Origin: a virus | Strand: one strand, 5' to 3' | IMG/VR virus record: IMGVR_UViG_3300028800_002444 | Span: 1 to 32,303 of that record | DNA length: 32,303 nucleotides | Shown here: piece by piece, positions 1,865 through 31,335 of the stretch | Layout: each line of letters starts with the position of its first letter | Position numbering within the stretch: position 1 is the first letter of the stretch | Made by a program: the position numbers and the translations under genes | Notes under the pieces: generated by a model | Told to the model about the DNA's origin: nothing | Database searches by the model: none | What the model saw: only the letters and a program-made list of their open reading frames with translations

Positions 1865-2266
1865 ATGAAAAAAACAATTCAATTCACTATAAAAGGAAAT
1901 CCGGACGACCTCGAGGGCAATCCGGTCCCGTACATCCGCGTAGTCGGCCGAGCGCTCTGGCTTCCAAACGCCAAGAGATATCACGCATGGAAGACCTATG
2001 TGCGCAGCGTCTTCTTCCGCTTGTACCCTGAACACTCGAACCGATCCGTCGAGCTTCAGCCATTCACCACAAAGGCATCGGATAAGGGCCGTATGGACAT
2101 CAAGATTTTCTGGGCAAATGGGATGCACGCCGATCCCGACAACGTCTTCAAGGGCATAGCCGACGCCCTCTTCAAGAACGACAAGTTTCTCGATGGGAGC
2201 TTCGAGTCTTGCTACGCGCCGGATTGCAAAGGTCGAGTGGACGTTACGATTTCTCTCAATCTCTAA
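1865..2266 (+). CDS. rusA: RusA-like Holliday junction resolvase
   Basis: A 133-residue protein, close to the usual RusA length of about 120. The diagnostic segment HADPDNVFKGIADAL gives D90, D92, N93 and K96, followed by further acidic residues at D100, D106 and D110. RusA enzymes bind branched DNA as dimers and use such Asp residues with Mg2+ to cut Holliday junctions. In phages they resolve recombination intermediates before packaging. The gene starts 3 bases after the initiator-like gene and ends 1 base before the methylase ATG, so it is co-transcribed with both. No Shine-Dalgarno sequence is visible. Confidence 0.85.
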   Translation: MKKTIQFTIKGNPDDLEGNPVPYIRVVGRALWLPNAKRYHAWKTYVRSVFFRLYPEHSNRSVELQPFTTKASDKGRMDIKIFWANGMHADPDNVFKGIADALFKNDKFLDGSFESCYAPDCKGRVDVTISLNL

Positions 2267-2267
2267 G

Positions 2268-3419
2268 ATGAAGTATTTCAGTCTCTTCTCCGGCATCGGC
2301 GGATTCGAACTGGGACTCATTAAAGCCTATGTGGAAATCATTAACAGAAATGCGGTCCGAAAAGGCCAAAAGGATCAGATCGAGAATGATGAAGCGTGGC
2401 AGAGATTGGAGTCCAAGAAGGGGAAAGGAGCTCGTGCCAAGAGTGGACGAACTCTCGAATTGCCTGACTGGCACAATGACCCGCGAGCACCTCATTGCGT
2501 GGGTTACTCCGAGATCGACAAGCACGCAATTAAAATCTATGAAAAATACTTCCAACACACAAACTACGGCGATATCAGAAAGATCAAGCCAAGAAGTCTC
2601 CCAGACTTCGACCTACTCATTGGAGGTTTTCCTTGCCAATCTTTCTCTATTGCCGGCAAGCGCAAGGGCTTTGAAGACACTCGCGGGACATTGTTCTTTG
2701 AGATTGCTCGCATTGCTCGTGCCAAAAGACCACGCCTTCTATTCCTTGAGAACGTTAAAGGGCTTCTCAATCACGAAAACGGGCGCACCTTTGGCGTCAT
2801 CCTCCGCACGCTGGATGGCCTTGGGTATGACCTCCAATGGCAAGTGCTTAACAGCAAAGATTTCGGGGTCCCGCAGAATCGGGAGCGAGTGTTTATTATC
2901 GGACATCTTAGAGGCACGCCCCGACCCGAAATATTTCCTGTCGGAGCGAACGGCAAGGCGGATATTGTCATACCAACCCTCACGGCACGCTATACCGCAG
3001 CGTCGAATGGAGGTTATGTGCGTCACCGACAGACACATCAAATAAACGATCCGGTCCATAGCAACGATCGCATCTATGCAACCGACGGCATCAGCCCAAC
3101 ACTCAACACCGCTCAAGGCGGGAATAGGCAGCCGAAGATCGTCGGAGGCTTGCAAGCTCATCAGAAACCAAGGGAGGACGGAATATCACCCACGCTCACA
3201 ACAGCAATGGGAATGGGCGGAGGGCAAACTCCGATCGTGTGGCGCAAGGATATAAAGATTCGTCGACTAACACCAAAAGAATGCGAACGACTCCAAGGCT
3301 TTCCGGACGGATGGACAGAGGGAGAGAGTGACACCCAACGATACAAGACCCTCGGCAATGCCGTGACTGTAAATGCGGTCCAAGCAATAGCAGAGAAATT
3401 GCTCGCAAAAAGGCTATGA
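2268..3419 (+). CDS. DNA cytosine-C5 methyltransferase, Dcm family (early-region copy)
   Basis: A 383-residue enzyme with the full C5-methylase motif order. FSGIGGFELG near the N-terminus binds AdoMet; FPCQSFS holds the catalytic C123; ENVKG follows; QNRERVFIIG is motif VIII. A variable target-recognition region contains two GISPTL segments, then RLTPKECERLQGFP and LGNAV close the fold. An insert rich in Lys, Arg and Glu lies between motif I and the PCQ loop. The longest open frame would begin at 2193 inside rusA, but ATG 2268 puts motif I right at the N-terminus. No nuclease gene adjoins it, so it is probably an orphan methylase that protects phage DNA. It differs from the C5 methylase at 24395. 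Confidence 0.93.
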   Translation: MKYFSLFSGIGGFELGLIKAYVEIINRNAVRKGQKDQIENDEAWQRLESKKGKGARAKSGRTLELPDWHNDPRAPHCVGYSEIDKHAIKIYEKYFQHTNYGDIRKIKPRSLPDFDLLIGGFPCQSFSIAGKRKGFEDTRGTLFFEIARIARAKRPRLLFLENVKGLLNHENGRTFGVILRTLDGLGYDLQWQVLNSKDFGVPQNRERVFIIGHLRGTPRPEIFPVGANGKADIVIPTLTARYTAASNGGYVRHRQTHQINDPVHSNDRIYATDGISPTLNTAQGGNRQPKIVGGLQAHQKPREDGISPTLTTAMGMGGGQTPIVWRKDIKIRRLTPKECERLQGFPDGWTEGESDTQRYKTLGNAVTVNAVQAIAEKLLAKRL

Positions 3420-3844
3420 ACAATCTCAACCATCCACGATACAAACTGACCACCACGGAAATCGAAAGCGCCAAAAGCCTCTTCGAAGACAACGGCTGGA
3501 AGATCATATGGCTCTGCATGCATTTCAACGTCGATCATAAATCAATCCGTTTCCACATGCACACGAACGGCTGGGTCCGGAAAGTCGGAGTGGCCACAGT
3601 GATGCCAGAGGAGATCGCTGCGATATACCGACAAATGCGCAGAGATAAATATCTCGAAAAGATGAAAGGTACTTACGAATTTATCCACGCCTCTGCACGC
3701 CAGAAGCGATTAGAGAATTGCGAGCATGCGCGATGGATTAAGCGATGCAGCCTTTGCGGGGAAATTCTCGCATCGGACTCGATCGATCATCACCTGATCG
3801 GCCAGTGCACGCCGAGATCAGAATTACCAGCCAATAACTTATAA
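3416..3844 (+). CDS. Hypothetical DNA-binding protein with HTH-like and Cys/His zinc-like segments
   Basis: A 142-residue protein that I do not recognise. Residues about 12-53 resemble a helix-turn-helix that scans for a target. The C-terminal end has C111-x2-C114, then H125/H126 and C131, spaced like a small zinc-binding finger. It overlaps the preceding methylase by 4 bases (ATGA), which implies translational coupling. The mix of HTH and zinc-finger-like ends suggests nucleic-acid binding, perhaps a regulator or packaging accessory factor. That role is inference from motifs and position only. Confidence 0.6.
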   Translation: MNNLNHPRYKLTTTEIESAKSLFEDNGWKIIWLCMHFNVDHKSIRFHMHTNGWVRKVGVATVMPEEIAAIYRQMRRDKYLEKMKGTYEFIHASARQKRLENCEHARWIKRCSLCGEILASDSIDHHLIGQCTPRSELPANNL

Positions 3845-3847
3845 ATC

Positions 3848-4270
3848 ATGAATAAAAACAACAACGAAGCTCCGGTCCAGATCGATACCAAACAACAGCC
3901 AAACCCTATCAACCTATCCGCTCGCTTTCTTGCGGCACGACCTGACTTCGTGGGTGCATGGATCATCGGCGCTCACGGCATCCTGCCAATATTCAAGTCG
4001 GCCCACAAGGAAGCGATCATCGGATTTCTTGAGACGGTCCAAATAGAATTCTTCGCCGCGCTCAAACATCATTTCGAGAAGAAGCATCCCGATCAGAAGA
4101 TGACCTACACCTTCGGGACGATTTGCCGAAACAAAAAGGGCGACGAGCGACTGGTCGTCGGCATTGTCCCGCAAAAAACAGGCAAGCCATCATACGAATA
4201 CATGGGAGACGACGGCAAGGTCGGTGCCTGCAATGAATCAAGCATGGTGAGCTGGATGGAAAAAAACTAA
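3848..4270 (+). CDS. Hypothetical protein
   Basis: A 140-residue protein with no motif I can name. The first 22 residues are polar and probably flexible. A mixed alpha/beta body follows with a hydrophobic stretch (FVGAWIIGAHGILPIF, about residues 34-49) that is too short and too mixed to call a membrane helix. It lies 3 bases after the previous gene and 1 base before the ParB-methylase gene, so it belongs to the same operon. An early-region DNA-metabolism accessory role is plausible but unsupported. Confidence 0.55.
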   Translation: MNKNNNEAPVQIDTKQQPNPINLSARFLAARPDFVGAWIIGAHGILPIFKSAHKEAIIGFLETVQIEFFAALKHHFEKKHPDQKMTYTFGTICRNKKGDERLVVGIVPQKTGKPSYEYMGDDGKVGACNESSMVSWMEKN

Positions 4271-4271
4271 T

Positions 4272-5588
4272 ATGCAAATCACTGACGTAAAACGATACGA
4301 GAAGAACGCCAAAGAGCATCCGGGCTTCCAGCTTGAGAAGATAGCGTCGAGCATCAAGGCGTTCGGATGCAAACAGCCGATCATCCTCGACAAAGACGGA
4401 GTAATTGTAGTCGGCCACGGCCGATTCATCGCCATGACGGAGCTTCTCGGCTATACGCTCATGGAGCAAAAAGCATTCACAAAGAAAGGCGAGCCAGTCA
4501 TACCATACGTTATGGTCGATGACCTGAGCGAGGAAGAAGTAAAGGCGTACCGCATCGCCGACAATCAGCTTAACGCTCTGACTGGACAGGACATGAGCCT
4601 GATCGTACCCGAGCTTAAAGAATTGGATGCGACAGGATTCGATATCACCCTTACCGGCTTTGATCGAGACCTTCTCCTTGAAGAAGACGAAAACGACGAT
4701 GTCCTGCCAGAAACTCCGGTCCAGCCAAAAAGCAAAGTGGGAGATGTCTATGAGCTCGGTCCGCACACCATCGTGTGTGGCGACTCAACGGAACGCGAAT
4801 CGTGGGAAAAAATCATGCGTGGCAGGAAAGCTGACTGCGTCTTCACCGATCCGCCATACAACGTGAACTATGCAGGTCGCGGAAAGAAAACGAGCGAAGG
4901 GATCATGAATGACGACATGGAAGCCGGAGTCTTCGACTCTTTCCTCGATCGAGCATTCGGAAATATCGCCGAGTGCGCGAAGTCGGGCGCGGGATGGTAC
5001 GTCTTCCACTCAACGTCCACGCAGGCGCAGTTTGAAGCAGCGCTCAAGAAGCACGGCATGGCGATCCGAAACCAGCTCATATGGAACAAGCCGACGGCAT
5101 CGATGGGATGGGGCGATTACCGATGGAAGCATGAGCCGTTCTTCTATGCCTCGAAGAACGGAGTCGAATCGGTCTTTTACGGCGATCGCACACATTCGAC
5201 GATCATAGATTTCCACGACAGCGAGCAGAAACTCCTCAATTGGGCGAAGCGACAGAAGAACCTCGAGACGGAAGGGAAGCTCACGATCTGGACAATGAAG
5301 CGCGACAAAGTAAACGAATATATGCACCCGACGCAGAAGCCGGTCGAGCTCATAACCTACGCGCTCTTCAACAGCTCAAAGGCCGAAGACCTGGTCATCG
5401 ATCCATTTCTCGGAAGTGGAAGCACTCTGATCGCCTGCCAGAAGACAAGCAGAGTGTGCACGGGTATAGAGCTCGATCCGAAGTTTATGGACGTGATCGT
5501 GCAGCGCTGGGTCGACTATACCGGCATAGAAACTGTGTTCAAAAACGGTCAACAGGAAATGTGGGAAATTACAAAACAAGATGAATGA
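4272..5588 (+). CDS. ParB-like domain fused to N4/N6 DNA methyltransferase
   Basis: A 438-residue two-domain protein. Residues about 1-100 are a ParB/Srx-like domain (GHGRFIAM near 49-56 and a following YRIADNQLN segment). The C-terminal domain is a beta-class amino-methyltransferase: catalytic DPPY at 193-196 comes first and the AdoMet-binding DPFLGSGST at 377-385 comes last. Such fusions are common in phages and mobile elements, where they methylate adenine N6 or cytosine N4. The sequence cannot tell which base is used. The gene overlaps the small terminase by 8 bases, so methylation and packaging genes are transcribed together. A role in marking phage DNA against host restriction is likely. 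Confidence 0.9.
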   Translation: MQITDVKRYEKNAKEHPGFQLEKIASSIKAFGCKQPIILDKDGVIVVGHGRFIAMTELLGYTLMEQKAFTKKGEPVIPYVMVDDLSEEEVKAYRIADNQLNALTGQDMSLIVPELKELDATGFDITLTGFDRDLLLEEDENDDVLPETPVQPKSKVGDVYELGPHTIVCGDSTERESWEKIMRGRKADCVFTDPPYNVNYAGRGKKTSEGIMNDDMEAGVFDSFLDRAFGNIAECAKSGAGWYVFHSTSTQAQFEAALKKHGMAIRNQLIWNKPTASMGWGDYRWKHEPFFYASKNGVESVFYGDRTHSTIIDFHDSEQKLLNWAKRQKNLETEGKLTIWTMKRDKVNEYMHPTQKPVELITYALFNSSKAEDLVIDPFLGSGSTLIACQKTSRVCTGIELDPKFMDVIVQRWVDYTGIETVFKNGQQEMWEITKQDE

Positions 5589-7740: not shown

Positions 7741-7782
7741 AATACCTACCGAAATGATTTTTTTCGACCTTATCCTTTAAAC
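7741..7782 (+). promoter_or_regulatory. Putative late promoter copy 1, upstream of portal
   Basis: AATACCTACCGA (7741-7752) is followed by a T-rich run and, 18 bases on, by the -10-like hexamer TATCCT (7771-7776). The portal ATG begins 6 bases after that hexamer, so transcription would start at or beside the A of the ATG and give a leaderless message. The same element with identical spacing recurs at 10996 and 15834. Confidence 0.72.
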
Positions 7783-9804
7783 ATGGCACTCGCGAAAGCA
7801 AAAATAAGAGACGATCTAGCAAAGCAATCTCTGAAAGAGATCGACTATTCCTACCGCTACAAGAAGGCTCGCATGAGCTCGTGGAACAAGAATGAGGACA
7901 TGATGAATCCAGATCGAGCGATCGCATCAGCGATCTCACCCTTCGGCTCTGGCTTGCAAGCCGATACACGCACCCAAGTCCCGCTCTACAAAATGCACGG
8001 CTTCGTCCAAACGATTCTCTCAAAAATCGATAACCCTCTCACGTTCAAGTATGTGAAGGGTGAAGCGGCTGACACAAAGAAAGCGAATCTGATGAACGCG
8101 ATCAAAGAAAAAGACGCGCAAACAGGCAGGTGGAACTTTAAAGACCTCATGGGCAAGAGAGATGCCGCAGTCTACGGCCGAACGATCTATCTCTACATGA
8201 GCCGAAGCATCAAGGGCGTTTATAAAAGCCTCTTGAGTTTGATTGACCCTAAAGATTTTCTTATTGACCCTGATGTCGGTGGACTCTGCACCGAAGAAGA
8301 CGACGGAAGCGGAGTGGAGAAGGCGAGCTACATGGGATGGTGGAATACGAAGCTCACCCGCGCTCAGCTTTTGCAGGGAGTGAAAGACGGCATTTACTAC
8401 AAGTCAGTCGTGCAAAGCATTCTTGATTCAGGGAGTAATGTCGATTCAAAAACTGCGCAGGACATCGACAAAGACAACCGCAAGATCAATGGCGCACCAC
8501 GCGAGCGATTCAAAACTGGCAATCAGTTTATTTTCTATACATGGATCACGACCGACGAAGACGATGACCGCTACTATCTGATTCTCACTCCCTCGGGCGA
8601 CTGTGTGCGATGCGAGCCTTGGACTGATATTCGAAAGAGCGGAAAGTATCCGATTTGGACGTGGGCTGCTTTCCCTGATCCTCGTGAATTCTGGACGCCG
8701 TCATATTGCGACTTTGCCCGTGGTATTTTCATGGCACAGGAAAAGAGCATCAACCAGTCCCTCGACAACTCCGAACAGATCAACCGACCTCAGACTGCGG
8801 TCAACGTCGACTATGTCCGCAACCTCGCCCAGGTTCGCTACCGAAAGGACGGCTACATTGAGATCGAGGGCAACATCGACGTTAACAAAGTGCTTCAGAC
8901 GCGACAGACTCCGCCGATTCAAGGTCCCTTCATGGTTTACGACAAGCTCGAGTCGATCGTCGAAGTGGAAAGTGGCGTCACAGCTGACGTGAAGGGCGTG
9001 AGCGACGAAGATACGCTCGGCATTTACGAAGGCAACCTCGCACAAGCAGGCGATCGCTTCGGACTTTTGAATAAAAGCTATGCAGAAGGCTACTACCGCT
9101 TTGCTGTTTTGCACAAAGAAGGCGTCATGCAGGACTTGAAAAGAAAGATGGCAGTTAAGATTGCCGGTCCAATGGGTCTTCAGATCGAAGAAGTCACCTC
9201 GAAAGACCTCAAGCCTTACAGCACCGACTATGACATACTCGTCGAGTCTTCAATTGCCGAAGCACAGAGCAATCTCGCCGACAGCAAGAACAAACTGACA
9301 TTCCTCGGAGCATACAAAGACGACCAGAACGTAAATCAAAAGGTTCTCTTTGAAACACAGGCATCGATTGCCGGCATTGACGACGATACGATCAAACGAC
9401 TTCTCGATATGAGTGACTACGATGCAGTCGAGACACTCGCTGAAGCTGATGAGGCATTCCAGATAATCATCGGTGGCGATGACGCGCCTCTCTACAAAGA
9501 TGCAACGACAGGATTCGTCCAGCATCTCGTCGACCTCTCCGAAAAATATGATTACGATCTCACTCCCGAGCAACATAGCGCAGTATTCGCCTACATCGAA
9601 AAGATGATGCCGATCGCCCAACAGAATGCCGCTCGGTCCGTGAGTATGCAGATGGCCAAGGCAGGCTTAATCAGTGGAAATGGTGGCGGAGCTCCGGTCG
9701 AGAGCGGTCCGACACTTGAAAACCCCGACCTTCAAGCCAATGGCTCTGCACCGATCGGTGACCCAAACATGGCAGTAGCGGAAAACGCCGCCTTGTCAGG
9801 GTGA
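7783..9804 (+). CDS. Portal protein
   Basis: A 673-residue protein, in the size range of large podovirus portals (P22 portal is about 725 residues). It lies directly after the large terminase and before the scaffold/coat genes, the usual portal position. The middle has the portal-like run of alternating helices and strands with SLIDPKDFLIDPDVGG (about 166-181). Later helices carry SVSMQMAKAG near the C-terminus, then a Gly/Asn/Pro-rich tail. Portals form the dodecameric ring at one capsid vertex that the terminase docks on and DNA passes through. No start other than ATG 7783 is sensible, and the promoter -10 box lies only 6 bases before it. Confidence 0.88.
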   Translation: MALAKAKIRDDLAKQSLKEIDYSYRYKKARMSSWNKNEDMMNPDRAIASAISPFGSGLQADTRTQVPLYKMHGFVQTILSKIDNPLTFKYVKGEAADTKKANLMNAIKEKDAQTGRWNFKDLMGKRDAAVYGRTIYLYMSRSIKGVYKSLLSLIDPKDFLIDPDVGGLCTEEDDGSGVEKASYMGWWNTKLTRAQLLQGVKDGIYYKSVVQSILDSGSNVDSKTAQDIDKDNRKINGAPRERFKTGNQFIFYTWITTDEDDDRYYLILTPSGDCVRCEPWTDIRKSGKYPIWTWAAFPDPREFWTPSYCDFARGIFMAQEKSINQSLDNSEQINRPQTAVNVDYVRNLAQVRYRKDGYIEIEGNIDVNKVLQTRQTPPIQGPFMVYDKLESIVEVESGVTADVKGVSDEDTLGIYEGNLAQAGDRFGLLNKSYAEGYYRFAVLHKEGVMQDLKRKMAVKIAGPMGLQIEEVTSKDLKPYSTDYDILVESSIAEAQSNLADSKNKLTFLGAYKDDQNVNQKVLFETQASIAGIDDDTIKRLLDMSDYDAVETLAEADEAFQIIIGGDDAPLYKDATTGFVQHLVDLSEKYDYDLTPEQHSAVFAYIEKMMPIAQQNAARSVSMQMAKAGLISGNGGGAPVESGPTLENPDLQANGSAPIGDPNMAVAENAALSG

Positions 9805-9835
9805 GCGGAATTATAAGAATTAATCAATTAAATTT

Positions 9836-10129
9836 ATGTCTGAATCAAACAACGTAAGGTTCGTAGAGAATAACGGCAAGTGGATGTGGAAGCACTATGA
9901 CGAGCAGGGCTCTGTCATTTTCCGCAGCCCTGCATTCGATACCGAGCGCGAGGCTCGTGAGGATTACGATGCTAATGGTGACAAGCCGCAGGAATCAAGC
10001 AGCTCCCAAGGCGAATCGAATGAGGCAACCAACACCTCTTCCGAATCAGCTCCGTCAGCAGGTACAGCCGCACCCGAAGGGGACACAAACGCAGGCTCTG
10101 CATCAGCCGATCAGGGTTCTGCAATCTAA
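9836..10129 (+). CDS. Small protein with YegP-like N-terminus and disordered tail
   Basis: A 97-residue protein. The first 45 residues (WMWKHYDEQGSVIFRS, then FDTEREAREDY) resemble the small beta-strand repeat of DUF1508/YegP proteins, with its W, G, S and F-x-x-x-x-x-A spacing. The remainder is Ser/Ala/Gly/Glu-rich and surely disordered. It follows the portal gene by 31 bases of A/T-rich DNA without a Shine-Dalgarno sequence. Function is unknown. Its position suggests a virion or assembly accessory role. The YegP likeness is tentative. Confidence 0.55.
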   Translation: MSESNNVRFVENNGKWMWKHYDEQGSVIFRSPAFDTEREAREDYDANGDKPQESSSSQGESNEATNTSSESAPSAGTAAPEGDTNAGSASADQGSAI

Positions 10130-10133
10130 AGCC

Positions 10134-10508
10134 ATGCTCAAATTCTCCTATCAAGTAAAAAAGAAAGCGAAAGACAAAGGCGACTTTCGCATTGTGAAGC
10201 AGGGACAGGTCGCGGAGTTTTCCCTGCGCGAACTTGCACGAAACATCGAGCAAGTGAAGAAGCAGGCGAAAGAAATGGAAGCGAATGCAAAACTTCAGGA
10301 GTCACTCGCGGAGAATATTCGCAGAGCAAACCCTGATCTTGTCGCTTACATTAAAAAGCTCACACCTAAGAAGCGCTTCACTCTCACCATGCTTGCGATT
10401 CAGGAGAATAAAGCGCGGCAATTTAAGAGTCAGGAGAAAGAATCAAAAAGTATTCTCCGCACTCTGGTCGAGGAGAACAAAGAGGTCCGTAAGCAACTCA
10501 AAATATGA
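10134..10508 (+). CDS. Small basic coiled-coil protein
   Basis: A 124-residue, Lys/Glu-rich, largely helical protein. Heptad-like segments (about residues 28-60 and 85-120) suggest a coiled coil. I start at ATG 10134, 4 bases after the previous stop, because the upstream open frame runs through another real gene and is a shadow. It overlaps the next gene by 4 bases (ATGA). No family is recognised. Between portal and scaffold genes it may be a morphogenesis factor, but this is inferred only from place and shape. Confidence 0.6.
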   Translation: MLKFSYQVKKKAKDKGDFRIVKQGQVAEFSLRELARNIEQVKKQAKEMEANAKLQESLAENIRRANPDLVAYIKKLTPKKRFTLTMLAIQENKARQFKSQEKESKSILRTLVEENKEVRKQLKI

Positions 10509-10879
10509 GCGACATCAATAAAATGCGAAAGGAACTCACGGGTCCACACAATGCTCTGAAGGAAACAGAGCAGGAGGAACGTGAGCAGACCGGCGAAAAG
10601 GTAGAGGAGCTGAGAAAAGATATTGATATCACTCAAGACCTCGTATCGTGGACGAAAACTCCCGCGGGCCAAGACACAATCAATAAGCTCCGACATGAAG
10701 CACGAAAGGCGATGAACGAAATGTTCTCCGTGCTTCATGAGAACCCTGAACTTGCCAAGCTGATATCAGTCGTTGCTCGTTTCGAGGCGACAGTCCAGAT
10801 GACAAAACGCTTCACAGGAGCTGAAGATGACCTCGATATTCTCCTCGACGAACTCGCCAGAAAACGGCCTACCGCCTAA
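10505..10879 (+). CDS. Small coiled-coil protein
   Basis: A 124-residue, charged, helical protein with a Glu/Lys-rich N-terminal half (about residues 15-45, coiled-coil-like) and a more amphipathic C-terminal half. It starts inside the stop codon of the preceding coiled-coil gene, so the two are probably translated in step and may form a complex. It is the last gene before the 11-bp repeats and the terminator, so it closes the portal transcript. No known family is recognised. Confidence 0.6.
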   Translation: MSDINKMRKELTGPHNALKETEQEEREQTGEKVEELRKDIDITQDLVSWTKTPAGQDTINKLRHEARKAMNEMFSVLHENPELAKLISVVARFEATVQMTKRFTGAEDDLDILLDELARKRPTA

Positions 10880-10894
10880 GCCAATTCGACGAGA

Positions 10895-10960
10895 TAAAGA
10901 AAAAGTAAAGAAAAGATAAAGAAATACTAAAGATTTAGTAAAGAAATTATCAAGAAAAAC
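10895..10960 (+). repeat. Six tandem 11-bp A-rich repeats (phased A-tracts)
   Basis: TAAAG begins at 10895, 10906, 10917, 10928 and 10939, exactly 11 bp apart, each inside a TAAAGAAANNN-type unit. A sixth unit with two changes (TCAAGAAAAAC) sits at 10950-10960. The array lies just after a stop codon in non-coding DNA. It contains the perfect inverted repeat TACTAAA-GA-TTTAGTA (10925-10940), and its last unit runs into the terminator stem. A-runs repeated every helical turn are expected to bend DNA. Confidence 0.8.
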
Positions 10961-10983
10961 CGCTGAGAAATCGGCGGTTTTTT
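10955..10983 (+). terminator. Rho-independent terminator closing the portal operon
   Basis: AAAAACCGCTGA (10955-10966) pairs with TCGGCGGTTTTT (10971-10982) around a GAAA tetraloop (10967-10970). The stem has a G/C-rich core with one G-U pair, and its right arm runs into six T residues (10978-10983). This is a textbook intrinsic terminator. It separates the portal unit from the scaffold/coat unit, whose promoter begins 13 bases downstream. Confidence 0.92.
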
Positions 10984-10995
10984 ATATGGAAATTG

Positions 10996-11037
10996 AATAC
11001 CTACCGATTTTATTTTTTCCGACTTTAGACTTGTCAG
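10996..11037 (+). promoter_or_regulatory. Putative late promoter copy 2, upstream of scaffold/coat leader
   Basis: AATACCTACCGA (10996-11007), a T-rich run, then the -10-like TAGACT (11026-11031) at the same 18-base spacing as the other two copies. It shares GAATACCTACCGATTTTA with copy 3. It sits directly after the terminator, and the predicted start is near 11038. Unlike the other two copies it is followed by a leader of about 97 bases rather than an immediate ATG. Confidence 0.75.
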
Positions 11038-11134
11038 CATAGAGGGGCCAACCTCTTTTATTAAAAGGTAATTGCGCGACTGTCCGGCGTTCAATCAGGA
11101 CACGATGGGGCGAAACCATCGAAATAAAAACGTT
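11038..11134 (+). ncRNA. Structured 5' leader of scaffold/coat operon
   Basis: The leader folds into three clear stems. AGAGG (11041-11045) pairs with CCTCT (11052-11056). TGTCC (11081-11085) pairs with GGACA (11098-11102). CGATGG (11103-11108) pairs with CCATCG (11116-11121). The second and third helices abut with no base between them and could stack. CTTTT and AAAAG (11055-11067) offer an alternative pairing that would open the first stem. The leader precedes the most highly needed virion genes, so a role in message stability or translation is plausible. It matches no riboswitch class that I recognise. Confidence 0.5.
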
Positions 11135-11980
11135 ATGCCAGAACCAAAATCAAAGGACGCAGCTCCTATCGACGATAAGTCGGGAAAGCCTGTAGAGGGA
11201 TCAAAGCCTGATAACAAAGGCGATGGCAAGGGTGCCGACTCTAAATCGATCGCAGAAGTCGCAGGTGCATCAACCGATTCCAAGGACGGCAAGCCTAAAG
11301 AAGGCGATGAGAAGGACACGCTCATAGTCGACCTCAAGAAAGAGAATCGGGAGATGAAGAAGATGATCCGCGACGAAGTCATCCCTACGATCCGCCAGCT
11401 TCAGCAAGATGTGAAGCACGGAAGTACGAGTGCCGGTGAAGCCGGAGACGAGCTGGATGCGCTCGCAAAAGAGTGGAAGCTCGATCCCAAGTTTGTCCAA
11501 AAGCTATCGGGCATTCTCCTCAACAAGTCCAAGAAGCAATTCGAAGACGAGTACCTTTCAGACATCAAAGACATCAAGTCGAAGACCGACGCGCAGTCGA
11601 AACAGATCAACAACGCGCAGATCACCGCTGCAATCTCGAAAGAGTTTGATCGAGTGGTCGGCGCTGACTCTGATCTTGGAAAGGTCGCCAAAAAAGAAGC
11701 CGTGAGGAAGTACATCATGTCGAGCGAGGAAAACCTCAACCGATCGATGGAAGACATCCTCGAGGAACTCTATGGCGATACCGACAAAGGCTCTGCCGGC
11801 ATGGAGGGCTACAGCTCTCAAGGTGGCAATCATCCGAAGGAACCGGACTACACAGCTCCGACCGACGATGACAATCGCCGCATTGCTGAATCAAGAGTGA
11901 AGCGCGGATCGGAATTCGAAAAGTATCAGGACAGCCTGATCGGCCGACTGACTCACAAGTCACGACACCGAAAGAATTGA
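11135..11980 (+). CDS. Scaffolding protein
   Basis: A 281-residue, highly charged, helical protein directly before the coat gene. The first 65 residues are Lys/Asp/Gly/Ser-rich and disordered, followed by a coiled coil (about 70-100, LKKENREMKKMIRDE). The C-terminal end is basic (SRHRKN). P22 scaffold is similar in size (303 residues) and also ends in a basic coat-binding segment. Scaffold guides coat assembly and then leaves the prohead. I chose ATG 11135; in-frame ATG 11105 lies inside a leader hairpin and TTG 11072 is unlikely. The call rests on composition and gene order, not on a sequence motif. Confidence 0.75.
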   Translation: MPEPKSKDAAPIDDKSGKPVEGSKPDNKGDGKGADSKSIAEVAGASTDSKDGKPKEGDEKDTLIVDLKKENREMKKMIRDEVIPTIRQLQQDVKHGSTSAGEAGDELDALAKEWKLDPKFVQKLSGILLNKSKKQFEDEYLSDIKDIKSKTDAQSKQINNAQITAAISKEFDRVVGADSDLGKVAKKEAVRKYIMSSEENLNRSMEDILEELYGDTDKGSAGMEGYSSQGGNHPKEPDYTAPTDDDNRRIAESRVKRGSEFEKYQDSLIGRLTHKSRHRKN

Positions 11981-12020
11981 TGAATGAAAGGGCATTTACC
12001 AAATTTAATTTTAGAAATAA

Positions 12021-13232
12021 ATGTCCTTAGTAACATTCAAAGAGCAATTCGACAACGCCTATCAGGCGGTGTTCGACAAAGTGCTCGTGGCGATGGAAAT
12101 TGCCAACACGCGACTCGAACAGCAGCTCACCTACGGAGCTTCTGTTAAACGCGTGAAGTACGCACTCGCACCGATCCGAGTACGCAACATCACGATCGGT
12201 CAGAACCGAACCATTGACCAGCTCAATGACTCGGGCGAAACCCTTCAGGTCAACAAGAACAAGGGTTCCGACTTCCGCATCTCTCGAAAGGAGATGGTTC
12301 AGGCAGGCCCACTGAATCCAGCCGAATCAATCGGCTCGGAGGTCGCAAAGAAGCTCTCTCGCTACATCGATGCTGACGTCTTCGCGGAAGTGAAGAACGC
12401 TCTTCAGACGTTCGATGCCGGTGACTTGACCACGATGGCTTCAAGCGGAACGCCGATCACGCTCTCGACAACGAACGTGCCTCAGCTTCTCGCGCAGGGT
12501 CGCGCAAAACTGCGCCGTGGCAACCAAGACCTCACAAGTCTTGCACTCGTCCTCGACAGCTATGGCGGCTCGGTGATCGAGCAGTACGTCATGTCGAAGA
12601 ATATCGACCTTGCAGGTGCTGCATTCCAGAACGGCTATGCCGGTCCAGTCGGCGGTGCGGAGCTTTACCTCTCCGAGAACCTACTCGCGGAAGCGATCAT
12701 CACGATGGCTTCGAATCCTACGAACGGCCAGACGTTCTCGGTCAACGGATTCATTTACACCTTCGTGTCGTCCCTCGGTTCGACACCAGGCAACGTGCTC
12801 ATCGATACCGGCACCGGAGTCGATGTGACCCGCGACAACCTGATCGATGCGTTCCTTCAGGATGTAGCAACGGCGGGTGTGAAGTATGTCGCTTGGACTG
12901 ACGCCGATCCGAACTACGACCAGTCGAACTGGGTCGACCTTCAGATTGCGGCTGTCGACAACGACACCACTGACCAGATTACCTTCACTGGAACTGGATC
13001 AGGTCGCCTCGCATTCGGTGGAACGGCAACCTTCACCATCACTTCGAACCTCGTTCATGCCTACTACGGCAAGAAAGGTGCGATCGACGTGGTCATTCAA
13101 GACCTCGCCGAGATGGAAATGGTCGACGATCCGTACCAGCGTGCGAAGATCGTCCGCGCCGATGCCATCTACGGCATCAAGACGTTCGCCGATGGAAGAC
13201 CTCAATTCCTCGACGTTCATCTTCAGTCATAA
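12021..13232 (+). CDS. Major capsid (coat) protein with inserted surface domain
   Basis: A 403-residue protein right after the scaffold gene, with the repeated alpha/beta pattern of an HK97-fold coat. It resembles the P22-type coat group in length and in lacking an N-terminal cleavable segment. Residues about 229-343 form an inserted Gly/Thr-rich beta domain that begins NPTNGQTFSVNGFIYTF. The coat sequence resumes at LVHAYYGKKGAIDVVIQD and ends near FLDVHLQS. The same type of domain is near the start of the protein at 16671. Two strong hairpins follow the stop codon. It is the natural candidate for the most abundant virion protein. Confidence 0.85.
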   Translation: MSLVTFKEQFDNAYQAVFDKVLVAMEIANTRLEQQLTYGASVKRVKYALAPIRVRNITIGQNRTIDQLNDSGETLQVNKNKGSDFRISRKEMVQAGPLNPAESIGSEVAKKLSRYIDADVFAEVKNALQTFDAGDLTTMASSGTPITLSTTNVPQLLAQGRAKLRRGNQDLTSLALVLDSYGGSVIEQYVMSKNIDLAGAAFQNGYAGPVGGAELYLSENLLAEAIITMASNPTNGQTFSVNGFIYTFVSSLGSTPGNVLIDTGTGVDVTRDNLIDAFLQDVATAGVKYVAWTDADPNYDQSNWVDLQIAAVDNDTTDQITFTGTGSGRLAFGGTATFTITSNLVHAYYGKKGAIDVVIQDLAEMEMVDDPYQRAKIVRADAIYGIKTFADGRPQFLDVHLQS

Positions 13233-13244
13233 AGATTGCACTAG

Positions 13245-13304
13245 CCTCAGCGACCGCTGGGGCTCAGTGCCAGATGCAGAGCTAATTCTGCCTCTGGCAC
13301 TGAG
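13245..13304 (+). promoter_or_regulatory. Tandem hairpins after coat gene (processing or attenuation element)
   Basis: The first stem pairs CCTCAGC (13245-13251) with GCTGGGG (13256-13262) around a GACC loop, with one G-U pair. The second is long: CTCAGTGCCAGA (13263-13274) pairs with TCTGGCACTGAG (13293-13304). After a single mismatch, GCAG (13276-13279) pairs with CTGC (13288-13291). The next ATG is 6 bases downstream. No U-tract follows, so this is probably not a full terminator. It could protect the coat message or lower expression of the next gene. Confidence 0.7.
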
Positions 13305-13310
13305 AAATAT

Positions 13311-13931
13311 ATGGCAACACCACTAACAGGAGAACAAATCATCGAGCGCTTCGAACTCTACACCGACGACACTACGGAGCTGTCGACCGATGAAGAACTC
13401 GAGGTGGCGAACGACAAGCTGCGCCTCATCTACATGGAGCAGTCATGGGAATTTCTGCGCCGAAACAAATCAGGCACGATCGAAAGCGATGGAAAGATAT
13501 CGACCCCAATCGACTTTGACGAATTCATGGAAAATTATGCGGAAGATTCCGACATTCCGAATATGAAAGTGGTCTATATCGGCAGCGGTGCTCCTTACGT
13601 TGTTATTCCGATGGGGCAGCGTAACTCACGCCAATATACAAATTCATGTTGGCTTGATCCTACAGACAACAAGATTAATTTTTCACAGAGTCCGGGTGTC
13701 GGCACTCCGTATCAATTCGACTACAAGACGAGTCCCGACGACGTTACAGTCGATACTTCGCCGGCTCTTCCTGCCGAATACCATCCGATGATTGTTTTTC
13801 TAATGCTCATCGACGAGGAGATCATCAAGAAGTCGGAAAAGGCTCGCAGCAACATGCAGGACAACGCAGTCCAGTATCAGACCTATCTCAAGAACCTGAA
13901 GCTCAGAGATGCTCGGTTAAAACTTTCATAA
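13311..13931 (+). CDS. Head-completion / head-tail adaptor protein
   Basis: A 206-residue protein placed directly after the coat gene, where P22 has gp4 (166 residues) and other phages have their first connector. The N-terminal region is helical and acidic (about residues 8-50). The middle is beta-rich with a WLDPTDNKINFSQSPG-type turn segment. The C-terminus returns to helices (about 150-206), a common connector layout. Such proteins bind below the portal and seal the packaged head. It starts 6 bases after a strong hairpin, which may limit its translation relative to coat. Assignment rests on position and fold pattern. Confidence 0.65.
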   Translation: MATPLTGEQIIERFELYTDDTTELSTDEELEVANDKLRLIYMEQSWEFLRRNKSGTIESDGKISTPIDFDEFMENYAEDSDIPNMKVVYIGSGAPYVVIPMGQRNSRQYTNSCWLDPTDNKINFSQSPGVGTPYQFDYKTSPDDVTVDTSPALPAEYHPMIVFLMLIDEEIIKKSEKARSNMQDNAVQYQTYLKNLKLRDARLKLS

Positions 13932-13932
13932 T

Positions 13933-15834
13933 ATGGCAGACTTTCCCATCACAGTTTTTCAATCAGGAGTGCACAATCGAGACGATGTCGAGGATACGCC
14001 AAAAGACAGCGCACAGGATGAGCTGAACTGGATTACCATCGACGGCAAGATAGAACTGGCCCGCGGGAAAGTGACAGTCGGTCCCGAAGGCGCGGCAGGA
14101 TCATGCCCGACGATCCATATCGGCTACAAGGTTAATGGCGTCTCGATCCTTTGGCGCAAGATCAGCACTAGAATTCAATACTATAACGGCTCGACATGGG
14201 TCGATGTTGTCACCGGCCTCAACGCTTCCGACAATTACGTCTTTTCAAACTACAGCTCGCTCACTGGAGCGTACACGTTCGCAGGCGGTCCGGGCGGACT
14301 CTTCAAATTCGCCAATGCGAATCCGAACAATTACATCCAACTCTACACCTCCACAGATTTTTATTGCGGGTATCCTCTTATCGACAAGGCGCGAATGTAT
14401 CTCTGGGGAATCATTAAAGACCAGACCTCTCTTTATCGAAGTCACATCGACGCGCAACGTGCTGGCACGAGCTTCACACAGGTAAGCGCAGAAAACATCG
14501 CAAGCGGAAATGGGGTGTTAAGGACATTCAGCGGAACTCTTGCATTCAAGGCGAGCAATGCAAAAGCAAACTGTGGACTGGTGACTATAAAATCAATCGA
14601 CACTGGCGGGGAAATATTTACTGATGACAAAAACGGAAACCTGAAAGGAAACGCGGGGGGCACGGGCACGATCAACTACATTACTGGCGCATGGAGCGTT
14701 ACATTCGTGACTGTTCCGTGGAATACCTCGAACAACATTCAAGCAACCTATGTCTGGGAAGACAGCACAAGTAAAGGTGTTGCTGATTTCAGCTTCAGCT
14801 CTCCTCGAGTGGCATCTGAAGGCGACGTGATCCGCCAAGACGAGGGTGGTGATGCAATTCAACAGCTCGTGATCGGTATCGACGGCAACTATTACTCGCT
14901 CAAAAAGCAAAGTGCATATCAACACAAATATAGCGACGATGATACGACTTTCAACAACGAAATCGTTCGTCGAAACATCGGTATTCTCACGCGCAAAAGC
15001 TCCGTGGCGACTGGCCGAGGTGTCGTGTTCATAAACACTGCAAACCCAGACCGACCGCAACTCACTGTTCTCGAAAAAGACCCGCTCGGCGATGATATCC
15101 TCGCAACCGAACTCATTCCGCATTTCGCATGGGAAAACTATGACTACTCCGATGCAGTCATGGAAACTTACGGACAATTTATCGTACTTTCCTGCAAGTC
15201 GCAGGACAACGACGTTAACGATCGCATGCTCATCATCGACATCACGCGTGAGACTGTCGATATTACAAATTATGGAATGAAATCGCTCATGCGAGACAGC
15301 GGATTTTTGTATGCAGGCAGTCCGCACACCGAGACTGTCTATAAAATCCTGAACGGCTTTGACGACGACAGCTACGTTCTCCAGAACAACTGGGACAGCA
15401 AGGATGAGACATACGGAATATCTCGCCTCAAGAAATATCGCAGACTCCGCTATCGGGGCCAGATCGATCCTGCCCAATATGTCGAGGTTTATGCCGACTA
15501 TGACGGTGCGGGGTATAACCTCGTCGGCACGATCAGAGGCGATGCAACCTATGTGAACCGAAGCAGTCCCTCAACTGTCGGTACGACGATGGTGGGCGAA
15601 GCCGCGGTCGGAGGTGATGGAGAGGCGACTGTCTATCCCTACGAGATGCAACTCAAAGCAGTCAAGATTCCCAAATTCCGTCGCCGAAGTATTCGTTTTA
15701 TCGCAAAAGGAATCGGCTACGTGAGCATCATGGAATCGACCGACTGGGACATTTTGACCTATGAAGACAGGCTTCCAAAGGTCTTCAGGCAGAAGGAGCA
15801 TGTCAGTCTCGACGGAAAGGAGGTAAATCAATGA
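13933..15834 (+). CDS. Large beta-rich tail protein, gp10-like hub/nozzle candidate
   Basis: A 633-residue, beta-rich protein starting 1 base after the adaptor gene. Repeated strand-turn patterns with Tyr/Trp/Gly turns (for example FAGGPGGLFKFANANPN near 116-132) suggest a propeller-like body. Podoviruses carry a hub or nozzle protein at this position (P22 gp10 is 472 residues), which attaches below the adaptor. The C-terminal third has a strand-rich cap ending FRQKEHVSLDGKEVNQ. Its stop codon shares a base with the third promoter repeat. No motif proves the role; it rests on position, size and the absence of a tail tube. Confidence 0.6.
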   Translation: MADFPITVFQSGVHNRDDVEDTPKDSAQDELNWITIDGKIELARGKVTVGPEGAAGSCPTIHIGYKVNGVSILWRKISTRIQYYNGSTWVDVVTGLNASDNYVFSNYSSLTGAYTFAGGPGGLFKFANANPNNYIQLYTSTDFYCGYPLIDKARMYLWGIIKDQTSLYRSHIDAQRAGTSFTQVSAENIASGNGVLRTFSGTLAFKASNAKANCGLVTIKSIDTGGEIFTDDKNGNLKGNAGGTGTINYITGAWSVTFVTVPWNTSNNIQATYVWEDSTSKGVADFSFSSPRVASEGDVIRQDEGGDAIQQLVIGIDGNYYSLKKQSAYQHKYSDDDTTFNNEIVRRNIGILTRKSSVATGRGVVFINTANPDRPQLTVLEKDPLGDDILATELIPHFAWENYDYSDAVMETYGQFIVLSCKSQDNDVNDRMLIIDITRETVDITNYGMKSLMRDSGFLYAGSPHTETVYKILNGFDDDSYVLQNNWDSKDETYGISRLKKYRRLRYRGQIDPAQYVEVYADYDGAGYNLVGTIRGDATYVNRSSPSTVGTTMVGEAAVGGDGEATVYPYEMQLKAVKIPKFRRRSIRFIAKGIGYVSIMESTDWDILTYEDRLPKVFRQKEHVSLDGKEVNQ

Positions 15835-15875
15835 ATACCTACCGATTTTAATTTTTTCACATCAATACTTAAGCC
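15834..15875 (+). promoter_or_regulatory. Putative late promoter copy 3, upstream of fibre gene
   Basis: AATACCTACCGA (15834-15845) overlaps the last base of the previous stop codon. The -10-like AATACT (15864-15869) lies at the same 18-base spacing, and the ATG at 15876 begins 6 bases later. As at the portal gene, the message would be leaderless or nearly so. Confidence 0.72.
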
Positions 15876-16655
15876 ATGTCGACAAAGCTCACAAAAGTAG
15901 TAGCAAACTTCGAAACATCGCTTGCGACCAAGCTCGGAAATGGTGCTACTTCGGGCTCTCTCACAACCGCCGTCGATAAGGATGGAAACGCACTTCCGGC
16001 AGGTAAATATTGCATGATCGCAGATCGCGGAACTGGTGATGAAGAACACCTCCTCTTTGACCTTTCAGGTGTTGCCATGAGCAATATCTTTAGCGTCTCG
16101 CGCCAAGGAGTGCTGACTGCCGGTGTGCAGAATTCAAATGGCCATCGCGCAGGTTCAAAGTGCTATCTCACGGACTTCGTGAACCTGAAAGTCATCGTCG
16201 ACATTCTTTCCGGCGCTGACACACTCGACTCCGCAAATCCAATCAGGTACGACGCTGATCCGACATTCACTGATTCAAAACAAGTAGTGTCGAAAGGTTA
16301 TGCCGATGCGGGTCTTGCCGGCAAGGCTGACATCAATGGCAACAACGTCTTCCAAGGTCATAACTCCTTCGTTCAGTCACCGACTGTGCCAGCCGCGACG
16401 ACCTCAAGCCAACCAGTAACGCTTGCTCAGCTCATGGCAGCGGCACTTTTTGGTATTCAAGACGGACTCGACTACGCCGATATCGCAATAAATCCGGACG
16501 GGTCGGTCAGGTCCCTTCACGACAATGTAAACGGCAAGACCTATGTCTTCAGCTACGACCCGAACGGCGACCTCTTCACGATCTACGATGGCGTGAGGAA
16601 GTGGACGATCGCGTCGACGCTGAGTGGCGAGAGGATCGCGGGCATTACCAGATAA
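15876..16655 (+). CDS. Tail fibre-like structural protein
   Basis: A 259-residue protein. The segment KADINGNNVFQGHNSF (about 149-164), followed by SSQPVTLAQLMAA, is the repeating strand-turn style of phage fibre shafts and trimer-forming attachment proteins. The C-terminus (residues about 205-259) has YD-type repeats such as SYDPNGDLFTIYDG, a beta-rich end. The N-terminal 80 residues probably bind the tail. It opens the third late unit under its own promoter. Receptor binding is plausible but not shown. Confidence 0.6.
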   Translation: MSTKLTKVVANFETSLATKLGNGATSGSLTTAVDKDGNALPAGKYCMIADRGTGDEEHLLFDLSGVAMSNIFSVSRQGVLTAGVQNSNGHRAGSKCYLTDFVNLKVIVDILSGADTLDSANPIRYDADPTFTDSKQVVSKGYADAGLAGKADINGNNVFQGHNSFVQSPTVPAATTSSQPVTLAQLMAAALFGIQDGLDYADIAINPDGSVRSLHDNVNGKTYVFSYDPNGDLFTIYDGVRKWTIASTLSGERIAGITR

Positions 16656-24394: not shown

Positions 24395-25654
24395 ATGGCG
24401 ATAACGATTTCTAAGGAAAATAAAATAGAGACTCGCACCGCCAACGAACCCCATCCTGAAATACCAGAAAAGGAAAATATTCAAGACGTTGCGGGTGCCG
24501 ACGAAGAACTGACCGACAGACCGTGGTCCGTGTTCGGCGAAAAGAGACTCAAAGAAAAGAAAAACGGATACACTCACGTCAGCCTTTTTGCGGGTGTCGG
24601 AGGTCTTGATCTCGGGTTCCGAGCCGCGGGCTTTAGAACGATCTGGGCAAACGATATCGATCCGGACGCTTGCGAAACTTTCAGAGAAAATCTTGGCGAC
24701 ATAATCCAAGAAGGCGATATTCGTACGATTGGATTTCCTAAGCTCGAAGAACCACTCGATGTGCTTTCGGCAGGGTTCCCATGTCAGCCATTTTCAAACG
24801 CCGGTTCTCGTCGCGGAGTCAAAGATTCTCGTGGAGACCTCTTTAATTTTGCATTAGATGCTGTAAAAGCCCTTAAGCCTAAAGTGGTCTTGTTCGAAAA
24901 TGTTCGAGGATTACTCTCGATCAAGATTGGAAAGAAATTATTGATAGAAGAAATCCTACGCCAACTCCACAATGAAGGATATGACTGCCAATTAAAGCTT
25001 GTCGATGCATCCAATCACAGAGTCGCACAAAGAAGGATGCGTCTGCTCGTTATTGGAGTCCAGCGAGATGCTGATCTCGGTCCATTTCGATACCCTCAAG
25101 AGAAGCCTAAAGTCGGTCTTACTATCGGAGAGACGATTCTCGATGTTCTTTCTTATCTACCGAATCAAAACGAACTGATGCAACTCAATCCGCAAGCCGT
25201 GAAGCTTGGAACCTATGTACCAGAGGGTGGATCGTGGAAAGACATCCCGTATGACGTCCTGCCTGAACGCTTACAACACATCCATAGGAACATGGCGAAG
25301 TACCGATGGCCAAAGTTTTACGCGCGATTCCATCGAGACGACATCGCCGGAACAATCACCGCTGCATTCAAGCCTGAGAACGCCGGAGTTTGGCATCCGA
25401 CCGAAAGTAGGGTATTCTCAGTCCGTGAGGTAGCGAGGATTCAGAGCTTCCCCGACTGGTTCGTTTTTGGCGGCAGAAACGTCAAATCCAAATACCAGCA
25501 AATAGGGAATGCCGTTCCGCCTAGGTTAGCATACGAGGTCGCTATGGAAATTGTGAATGTCCTAGAAGGCCATAAACCTAGGACTTTAGATGATTTCTTA
25601 AAGGAAAAAAGGCCTTTGCGTACCTCAGATAAGGCGATCCACTACACCCCATAA
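24395..25654 (+). CDS. DNA cytosine-C5 methyltransferase of the cassette
   Basis: A 419-residue enzyme with all core motifs: LFAGVGGLDLGF (AdoMet), FPCQPFSNAG with catalytic C130, FENVRGL, QRRMRLLVIG, REVARIQSFPDW and QIGNAVPPRLA. A polar 60-residue N-terminal extension precedes the catalytic fold and has no HTH that I can see. It is the first gene of a tightly spaced five-gene operon ending in a nuclease, so it most likely protects self DNA from that nuclease. It is clearly different from the C5 methylase at 2268 in extension and target region. The near-leaderless start follows an extended -10 and a palindrome. Confidence 0.93.
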   Translation: MAITISKENKIETRTANEPHPEIPEKENIQDVAGADEELTDRPWSVFGEKRLKEKKNGYTHVSLFAGVGGLDLGFRAAGFRTIWANDIDPDACETFRENLGDIIQEGDIRTIGFPKLEEPLDVLSAGFPCQPFSNAGSRRGVKDSRGDLFNFALDAVKALKPKVVLFENVRGLLSIKIGKKLLIEEILRQLHNEGYDCQLKLVDASNHRVAQRRMRLLVIGVQRDADLGPFRYPQEKPKVGLTIGETILDVLSYLPNQNELMQLNPQAVKLGTYVPEGGSWKDIPYDVLPERLQHIHRNMAKYRWPKFYARFHRDDIAGTITAAFKPENAGVWHPTESRVFSVREVARIQSFPDWFVFGGRNVKSKYQQIGNAVPPRLAYEVAMEIVNVLEGHKPRTLDDFLKEKRPLRTSDKAIHYTP

Positions 25655-25660
25655 ATTTCC

Positions 25661-26488
25661 ATGATGCGGTACTTAACTGACAACTTAATCCGCGAATCTT
25701 TCCTACGGCTACGACAAAACGAAACTGGCGGAAAGACAGGTCTCGAGCGCACATCTGCCTTGATGTGTTTTCTTGCATTTGATGCTCTCCTAAAACGCAC
25801 GAGCGTAAATCCTCCTCTCGATTTTGACCCAGAAGCAAGCATCGGCAATAACAACAGGTCCGGACTTACGCGCGAATTCAGCCGACTCGTTCAGCTGAAA
25901 AATGGGTCTGAACCATATCATGTAATCAACCTCGGCGAAGTCACAGTCGGAGGTAATCCTCCTGAAAAGCGCTTTTCTTCAAACTTCCTCACTACTGGAA
26001 TGAAAAAGGCGACGACTAGCGCAACCTCTTACGATTATCCGACTCGGCCTTCCAATCCGCTCCTAGTCCTTGGTCCAAAGGCTACTGGCCTCACCTGGGG
26101 AATGAATCGTCATCCAGACTGGAAGGAAAACCTCCCAGTCTTTCTTGAGGGTCGAAAGACTAAAACTCCATTCACTGACCTAGCTATCTTCGTACTTCGC
26201 CAGCGCGGCATTGAATCTGAAGCGAAGACATTGCAGGATGGTCTGATGGATGGTTTGTGCGAAATCTTTACTCCTGAATTGTGCGAATTTTGGAAGAAGA
26301 AAGTGTCTCTTGAAAAAGTATATTTCGAGGCAGTCGAATCTCCCTTTCAAGATTCTGCTGCCACTCCATTCGCAGACTGCTCGTGGATGGGCGATTTCCA
26401 GCCGATCGACGAAACTACCATACTTACATCACGGGTGACCTACCTCGAAGGTCTACTGCGTATGCATAACATTTCATTCGAGGAATAA
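25661..26488 (+). CDS. Unknown protein of the methylase-nuclease cassette
   Basis: A 275-residue protein with no family that I recognise. The N-terminal half is mixed helix/strand (LMCFLAFDALLKR near 34-46). A central KRFSSNFLTTG segment and a NPLLVLGPKATGLTWGMNRHP segment (about 132-152) look conserved-like. The C-terminal part is helical and ends with an acidic tail. It lies 6 bases after the methylase and 6 before the ParB-like gene, so it is surely co-expressed. It may be a specificity, adaptor or effector subunit. ATG 25661 is directly followed by a second ATG, so either may start. Confidence 0.7.
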   Translation: MMRYLTDNLIRESFLRLRQNETGGKTGLERTSALMCFLAFDALLKRTSVNPPLDFDPEASIGNNNRSGLTREFSRLVQLKNGSEPYHVINLGEVTVGGNPPEKRFSSNFLTTGMKKATTSATSYDYPTRPSNPLLVLGPKATGLTWGMNRHPDWKENLPVFLEGRKTKTPFTDLAIFVLRQRGIESEAKTLQDGLMDGLCEIFTPELCEFWKKKVSLEKVYFEAVESPFQDSAATPFADCSWMGDFQPIDETTILTSRVTYLEGLLRMHNISFEE

Positions 26489-26494
26489 TTTTAT

Positions 26495-27616: not shown

Positions 27617-27632
27617 TCCGGCTGAACTCCCG

Positions 27633-30550: not shown

Positions 30551-30582
30551 CTATAAGGTGCATTTTATTAATGATGATCACT
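30547..30582 (+). promoter_or_regulatory. Promoter for Cas4-like nuclease gene, near-leaderless
   Basis: TTGACT (30547-30552), a 17-base spacer and AATGAT (30570-30575, four of six matches to TATAAT). The ATG at 30583 begins 7 bases after the -10. The -35 box overlaps the stop codon of the preceding nuclease gene. Its TTGACTATAA core is shared with the promoter at 32025. Confidence 0.6.
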
Positions 30583-31335
30583 ATGTCCGAATACTATAAA
30601 CCAAACCGAATACGAAACATCTACTCCCCGTCGAGTACGGAGTCTTTCAAGCTGTCTCGATCAAAAATCGAGATGTATACGAAATGCCCGAAATGCTTCT
30701 ATATGGATCGCCGTCTTGGCGTTGGACAAATACCGCCGTTTCCCTTCGCCTTGAACACCGCCGTCGACACTCTTCTCAAAAAGGAATTTGATGTGCATCG
30801 AGCTGGAAAAACTCCGCACCCAATGATGATGGCTTACGGACTCGACATGGTCCCGTTTCAACACGAGAAGATGGATGAATGGCGCGAGAATTTCAAAGGT
30901 GTTCAGTACCATCACAAGCCAACGAATTTTATAATAACTGGTGCCGTCGACGATCTATGGGCCGATCGCAGCGGAGAGATCGCGGTCGTCGATTACAAAT
31001 CGACAAGTAAGCCGACCAAAGTCACTCTCGATGCCGACTGGCAGATGAGCTATAAGCGACAGATGGAAATATATCAGTGGCTACTTCGCCAGGTAGGATT
31101 CAAAGTCTCAAACACGGGATATTTTGTATACTGCAACGGGAAGACGGACCGACAGGCTTTCGATGCAAAAATCGAGTTTGACATAGACATACTTCCATAC
31201 ACCGGAGACAGCTCCTGGGTAGAAAAAGCCCTGTTCGATATCAAAGAATGCCTAGATGGGGATATGCCAGCTCCCGCCCAAGACTGCGATCATTGCAACT
31301 ACCGAAAAGCGGCAAATGCAGTCGATCCAAGCTAA
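30583..31335 (+). CDS. Cas4/RecB-like PD-(D/E)XK nuclease with four cysteines
   Basis: A 250-residue nuclease. The opening segment LSRSKIEMYTKCPKCFY is the RecB/Cas4 signature, with C35 and C38. Catalytic residues are D123/D124 in GAVDDLW, D137 and K139 in VVDYKST, and Q160 in the QxxxY motif. C235 and C238 close the domain, so four cysteines could hold an iron-sulfur cluster. No CRISPR genes or array are near, so it is not part of CRISPR adaptation. The protein strongly resembles a nuclease that I associate with Patescibacteria genomes. It has its own promoter after the defence cassette. I chose ATG 30583 from promoter spacing; 30571 or 30574 are alternatives. Confidence 0.82.
   Translation: MSEYYKPNRIRNIYSPSSTESFKLSRSKIEMYTKCPKCFYMDRRLGVGQIPPFPFALNTAVDTLLKKEFDVHRAGKTPHPMMMAYGLDMVPFQHEKMDEWRENFKGVQYHHKPTNFIITGAVDDLWADRSGEIAVVDYKSTSKPTKVTLDADWQMSYKRQMEIYQWLLRQVGFKVSNTGYFVYCNGKTDRQAFDAKIEFDIDILPYTGDSSWVEKALFDIKECLDGDMPAPAQDCDHCNYRKAANAVDPS

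Follow-up and report, generated by a model that had tools for sequence, protein, structure and literature searches.

Syntenic promoter-like repeats ahead of the structural operons of a Patescibacteria phage group, and a phage protein that may read them

A repeated 12-mer in the structural region

The DNA analysed here, called the window throughout, is the full 32.3 kb (32,303 nucleotides) of virus record IMGVR_UViG_3300028800_002444, which may be a fragment. The 12-mer AATACCTACCGA occurs in it exactly at 7741, 10996 and 15834, always on the + strand, and no other site in the window matches it with zero or one mismatch. The elements of interest are as follows.

3416..3844, + strand: c4, a 142-aa protein with a helix-turn-helix (HTH) and a C-terminal CxH...CxxC zinc-ribbon-like part; candidate specificity factor
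7741..7752, + strand: copy 1 upstream element AATACCTACCGA, exact match, at about -42 to -31; orthologous elements in relatives
7771..7776, + strand: copy 1 -10-like hexamer TATCCT; the ATG at 7783 is 6 nt further
7783..9804, + strand: portal gene, by its match to SU10_portal (PF23899, E 1.8e-11); ATG position conserved; predicted leaderless
10958..10983, + strand: intrinsic-terminator-like hairpin and T run just 5' of copy 2, read in the sequence; also in relatives
10996..11007, + strand: copy 2 upstream element AATACCTACCGA, exact match
11026..11031, + strand: copy 2 -10-like hexamer TAGACT; predicted start about 11038-11039
11038..11135, + strand: putative structured 5' leader of the copy 2 transcript, three hairpins; conservation starts at the predicted +1
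11136..11980, + strand: scaffold-like gene upstream of the major capsid gene; function suggested by position; homologues present
12021..13232, + strand: major capsid protein; weak phrog_544 match; 82-85% identity in close IMG/VR relatives
15834..15845, + strand: copy 3 upstream element AATACCTACCGA; its first base doubles as the last of the preceding stop codon
15864..15869, + strand: copy 3 -10-like hexamer AATACT; the ATG at 15876 is 6 nt further
15876..16655, + strand: 259-aa gene, predicted leaderless; opens the next gene block

The preliminary description of this DNA had given the three 12-mer positions correctly to the base, and its reading of the surroundings holds as well: each hexamer lies exactly 18 nt past the 12-mer, and at copies 1 and 3 the ATG follows 6 nt beyond the hexamer. 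Similarity among the copies extends over 37 nt around the 12-mer, at 70-81% identity. AATACCTACCGA is the sole 12-mer that occurs at least three times in the window. Some 12-mer reached that count in 24 of 200 dinucleotide shuffles (p about 0.12), and repetition by itself is thus statistically weak. What places the element beyond chance is that all three copies fall in the roughly 5% of non-coding DNA (copy 3 overlapping the stop codon by one base), that the spacing to the -10 is fixed and, above all, that the copies are syntenic in about 20 relatives. Looser matches at 13777 (two mismatches, within a coding gene, hence chance) and at 9938 (weak, inside a gene) were dismissed.

Two further features of the window deserve mention. 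Imperfect 11-bp tandem repeats (TAAAGAAA...) at 10895-10960, ahead of the terminator and copy 2, also occur in relatives and are possibly bent DNA. The blocks 2193-5588 and 24395-31335 encode a pair of C5 methyltransferases, a fusion of ParB with a methyltransferase, and an SNF2 helicase together with a PD-(D/E)XK nuclease; several unknown genes lie nearby, making this a possible modification or defence block.

The element diverges in concert within each phage

Terminase and capsid searches recovered about a dozen IMG/VR relatives, and a portal-profile scan added eight loci spread over seven MAG assemblies, of which four are labelled Patescibacteria, Parcubacteria or Paceibacterota. Scans with c4 or with the copy 2 leader sequence brought no new phages. 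A search of 50,697 phage records gave no match to the 633-aa protein; distant relatives stand at 42-50% in this protein. The hosts of this phage group are Patescibacteria, a huge, mostly uncultured group of ultra-small bacteria. In two assemblies, G013 and G016, sigma70-type genes lie on the contig that carries the phage, which fits prophages. One Patescibacteria MAG, G015, carries two related phages (L070, L073) that belong to different motif classes; each has a c4 of its own. The 59.9-kb G003 record (L024-L026) apparently contains two phages in tandem, related yet distinct, and a second terminase and early gene block lie at about 14-21 kb; by eye, the second phage was not seen to share the motif.

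Orthologous copies of the element are present in 20 of 20 related records, as far as the contigs reach, at the same positions: 5' of the portal gene, of the scaffold-like/major-capsid operon and of the 259-aa gene. The 12-mer itself varies between phages and is nearly always identical among the copies of one phage. Six phages have AATTCCTACAGA; other motifs are AATGCACGCAAT, AATGCACCCAAT, AAT[GA]CACCA, AATACACCC, ATTGCACACACT, AATGCAAC[GA] and AATCCGTGGTCT. In L072, motif position 4 is A in one copy and G in two, which looks like drift in progress.

The geometry around the element is far more constant, as counted over 50 sites in 20 phages. The 12-mer stands 18 nt from the hexamer at 40 of the 50 sites and 20 nt from it at all eight sites of G001, L070 and L076. 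The hexamer consensus is cATACT, with A2 at 50/50 and T6 at 49/50 sites; G005 has poorer hexamers than the other phages. Searching with the 12-mer only, we found extra copies in G002, G003, G004 and G005, each with an NANNNT-type hexamer at 18 nt, and in the first three of these the ATG again lies 6 nt past the hexamer. These fourth copies are at 18389 (+) in G002, 36311 (-) in G003 and 2560 (-) in G004; by eye, the G003 copy stands ahead of a likely lysis block that includes an amidase-like gene. No fourth copy of the G002-G004 type was found in the window. In host genome scans the motif falls inside the prophage in 3/3 (G017), 4/4 (G013) and 4/5 (G015) cases. Distant relatives have no 12-mer; TATAAT occurs in 21 of 39 of their upstream regions, versus 0 of 50 sites in the motif-bearing phages. 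In several of them (L043-L068) TATAAT lies only 8-11 nt ahead of the start codon, and very short leaders may be common in the wider phage group.

The copies thus share an upstream element at a fixed distance from a -10, ahead of structural operons, and this element is phage-specific and diverges in concert within each genome. Judged from these features, the three repeats are to be read as promoters and, going by gene content only, as promoters of a 'late' class. That they are phage-specific promoters, as first proposed, is favoured by the synteny of the copies and by their concerted divergence. It had also been expected that the 12-mer would recur in relatives upstream of portal, scaffold and fibre genes, its absence there counting against a promoter. 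Copies do stand ahead of the portal gene, the scaffold/capsid operon and a further structural-region gene, but none of the close relatives retrieved has the literal 12-mer. Because position and architecture are conserved while the letters are not, absence of the repeat, taken as worded, would have misled. A motif that is the same within a phage and different between phages points to a cognate trans-acting factor.

Predicted start sites and the copy 2 leader

How close does transcription start to the coding sequence? The ATG follows the hexamer by 6 nt in 13 of the 14 copies that precede the 259-aa gene; among portal copies the gap is 9 nt in 17 of 20, the window having 6. Since nearly all phages have the start codon 6 or 9 nt beyond the hexamer at copies 1 and 3, the natural reading of the promoter geometry is that the portal and 259-aa gene mRNAs would be leaderless or carry a 3-nt leader. 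The absence of Shine-Dalgarno enrichment in the phage (2 of 30 genes versus 2.4 in shuffles) fits leaderless or short-leader translation. A search for the anti-Shine-Dalgarno pattern in host 16S gave no match, a result that informs neither way. Phage transcripts have been described as often leaderless (PMC5312081); the present case differs in that the same genes are concerned in about 20 phages, and in that it is predicted from promoter geometry only. Literature searches returned nothing on leaderless mRNAs in Patescibacteria phages, nor on gene control in these phages at all.

Copy 2 is built differently. There, conservation resumes with CATAGAGGGGCCAACCTCTT at the predicted +1 and runs for about 100 nt to the scaffold ATG. 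This stretch folds into three hairpins, with compensatory changes in 7 of 17 pairs (RNAalifold), and has no Rfam match. A loop, CGTTT, could pair with AAACG just ahead of the ATG. Our guess is that the leader controls translation of the scaffold/capsid operon. Because copy 2 begins a structured leader of this length, it is not leaderless. The original proposal of leaderless messages from this promoter therefore survives as a prediction for copies 1 and 3, where the ATG sits at the predicted +1, and falls for copy 2.

A candidate reader of the 12-mer

The most likely reader is c4, as judged by its correlation with the motif. All close relatives in which the region is present have it, and none of 16 distant records without the motif do; in six host genomes it occurs once per phage, and twice in the genome with two phages. 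AlphaFold predicts a three-helix HTH at residues 13-51 (pLDDT above 90), followed by further helices and, with lower confidence, a zinc-ribbon-like C-terminal end. Pfam and PHROG gave no family with a meaningful score for the window c4, Ogr/Delta and MotA Pfam matches were absent from c4 and the 13 relatives scanned, and PDB sequence and fold searches with c4 had no significant match.

Motif distance correlates best with the HTH half of c4 (Mantel rho 0.53, reached by 0 of 2000 permutations), compared with 0.10 for the neighbouring c5, 0.05 for terminase and 0.27 for the O-like replication protein; these tests, like the c4-motif association itself, ignore phylogeny. In separating motif classes c4 also comes out best (AUC 0.999; c5, 0.485). 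RusA (0.990), the 206-aa head gene (0.984) and the portal (0.961) come close, presumably through shared ancestry, so that statistics alone do not single out c4. G001 and L076 have a common 12-aa insertion in the c4 linker and both use the 20-nt spacing; the C-terminal parts of their c4 are 75% identical and the HTH halves 48%, and their motifs differ. This is what a reader whose HTH sets the sequence and whose linker sets the distance would give, here in two c4 lineages. As a predictor of the nearest motif to that of the window, whole-c4 identity fails: the closest c4, that of L010, belongs to a different class. The window HTH has IRFH in common with the CCTAC classes.

Alternative readers and known systems

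Phage-encoded specificity for structural operons has precedents. P2 Ogr and P4 delta are small zinc-containing phage activators of capsid operons that work with the host polymerase, from sites near -55. The candidate here is likewise a small zinc-ribbon-like phage protein linked to capsid operons; c4 differs from them in its HTH and in lacking an Ogr/Delta Pfam match. In T4 the MotA box is centred near -30. As we propose for c4, MotA is a phage DNA-binding protein that replaces -35 recognition and leaves the -10 to host sigma70, in the MotA/AsiA sigma appropriation of middle promoters (PMC6755090). In contrast to MotA, c4 combines an HTH with a zinc-ribbon-like part and has no MotA Pfam match, and no AsiA-like gene was identified.

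The late promoters of 7-11 and phiEco32 use phage sigma factors, gp47 and gp36 respectively, the 7-11 consensus read by gp47 being GTAAtg-(16)-aCTA (PMC8948821). As in our phages, these promoters are phage-specific, lie ahead of structural operons at conserved genome positions, place the start 6-9 bp from the promoter element and vary in specificity among related phages with an SU10-type portal. Could a phage sigma-like factor of this kind read the 12-mer as a -35 and cATACT as a -10? The two-part layout does resemble 7-11 late promoters, as does the GTAATG-like box found upstream in many relatives (PMC8948821), and the portal belongs to the SU10 portal family, from the same phage group as 7-11. 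However, six phage records had no Sigma70_r4 (PF04545) match, no homologue of gp47 was found in 20 genomes, and hhalign showed no relation between gp47 and c4. The preliminary suggestion of an own activator or sigma-like factor is favoured in its first half by the concerted divergence of the motif, the likely factor being an HTH/zinc protein, and not in its sigma half, since no sigma-factor homologue was found. Neither the GTAAtg-(16)-aCTA nor the tAATGTAtA consensus fits, since spacing and -10 differ: the upstream box spans 12 nt and stands 18 nt from a sigma70-like -10 that retains the A2/T6 core, and 29 nt, not 16, from ACT. Predicted leaderless starts and Patescibacteria hosts further set these promoters apart. 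We regard a phage sigma as distinctly unlikely.

That a host regulator or host alternative sigma reads the 12-mer, the motif classes reflecting different hosts, would accord with the several sigma70-family genes in the hosts and with the presence of the phages in different Patescibacteria. Yet, unless contigs were mis-binned, G015 (UBA5187) has two phages that differ in motif class; within host genomes nearly all motif copies lie in the phage, and the presence of the motif is tracked by that of c4; the chances of a host reader seem slim. A somewhat better case, still an unlikely one, can be made that the promoters are real and that another phage gene supplies the factor, such as that for the O-like replication protein or one located beyond the window, c4 merely sharing ancestry with the motif. 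RusA, the 206-aa gene and the portal also sort with motif class, and a further regulator may lie outside a record that may be incomplete. Against this, c4 ranks first and is the only conserved HTH protein without a known role that all relatives with this region possess, and the correlation for the O-like protein is weak. Finally, the repeats could be repressor operators or packaging or replication sites instead of activator sites: in class B phages (L004, L075) the element is, by eye, an inverted repeat, AATGCA-N8-TGCATT, typical of dimer sites. The fixed 18 nt to the -10 and 6-9 nt to the ATG, and the lack of overlap with the hexamer, make this very improbable. So does the -10, which is TATAAT in none of the copies, as activator dependence would predict.

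A model for structural-gene transcription

To explain these results, we propose that a phage DNA-binding protein, most likely c4, would bind the lineage-specific 12-mer at about -42 to -31, in the place of a -35 box, and recruit or stabilise host RNA polymerase with its primary sigma on the weak -10 (cATACT); an unusual sigma could read this -10 instead of sigma70. RNA would start 6-8 nt past the hexamer. For the portal and 259-aa genes this would be the A of the ATG, or 3 nt earlier in most portal copies of relatives; for the scaffold/capsid operon, the beginning of the conserved, structured leader of about 100 nt. As a whole, we consider it probable that the 12-mers are promoters of the structural operons of a Patescibacteria phage or prophage, served by c4 and host sigma and yielding leaderless messages at copies 1 and 3.

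A bolder reading, which we hold tentatively and at a little under even chances, is that c4 is the first member of a new phage transcription factor family which assumes -35 recognition in phages of Patescibacteria, its HTH repeatedly re-specified together with the promoters and its linker setting the distance to the -10, giving orthogonal pairs and leaderless mRNAs. The many motif classes with fixed geometry could be of use as activator/promoter pairs that are orthogonal by nature. Given the leaderless geometry, Patescibacteria hosts offer a direct test of translation without Shine-Dalgarno sequences. Sequence gives access here to a promoter class, its candidate reader and its evolution, all open to testing in vitro with purified components. 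Each virus lineage has its own version of the switch, with the likely reader varying in step: a private gene-control code, legible in the sequence.
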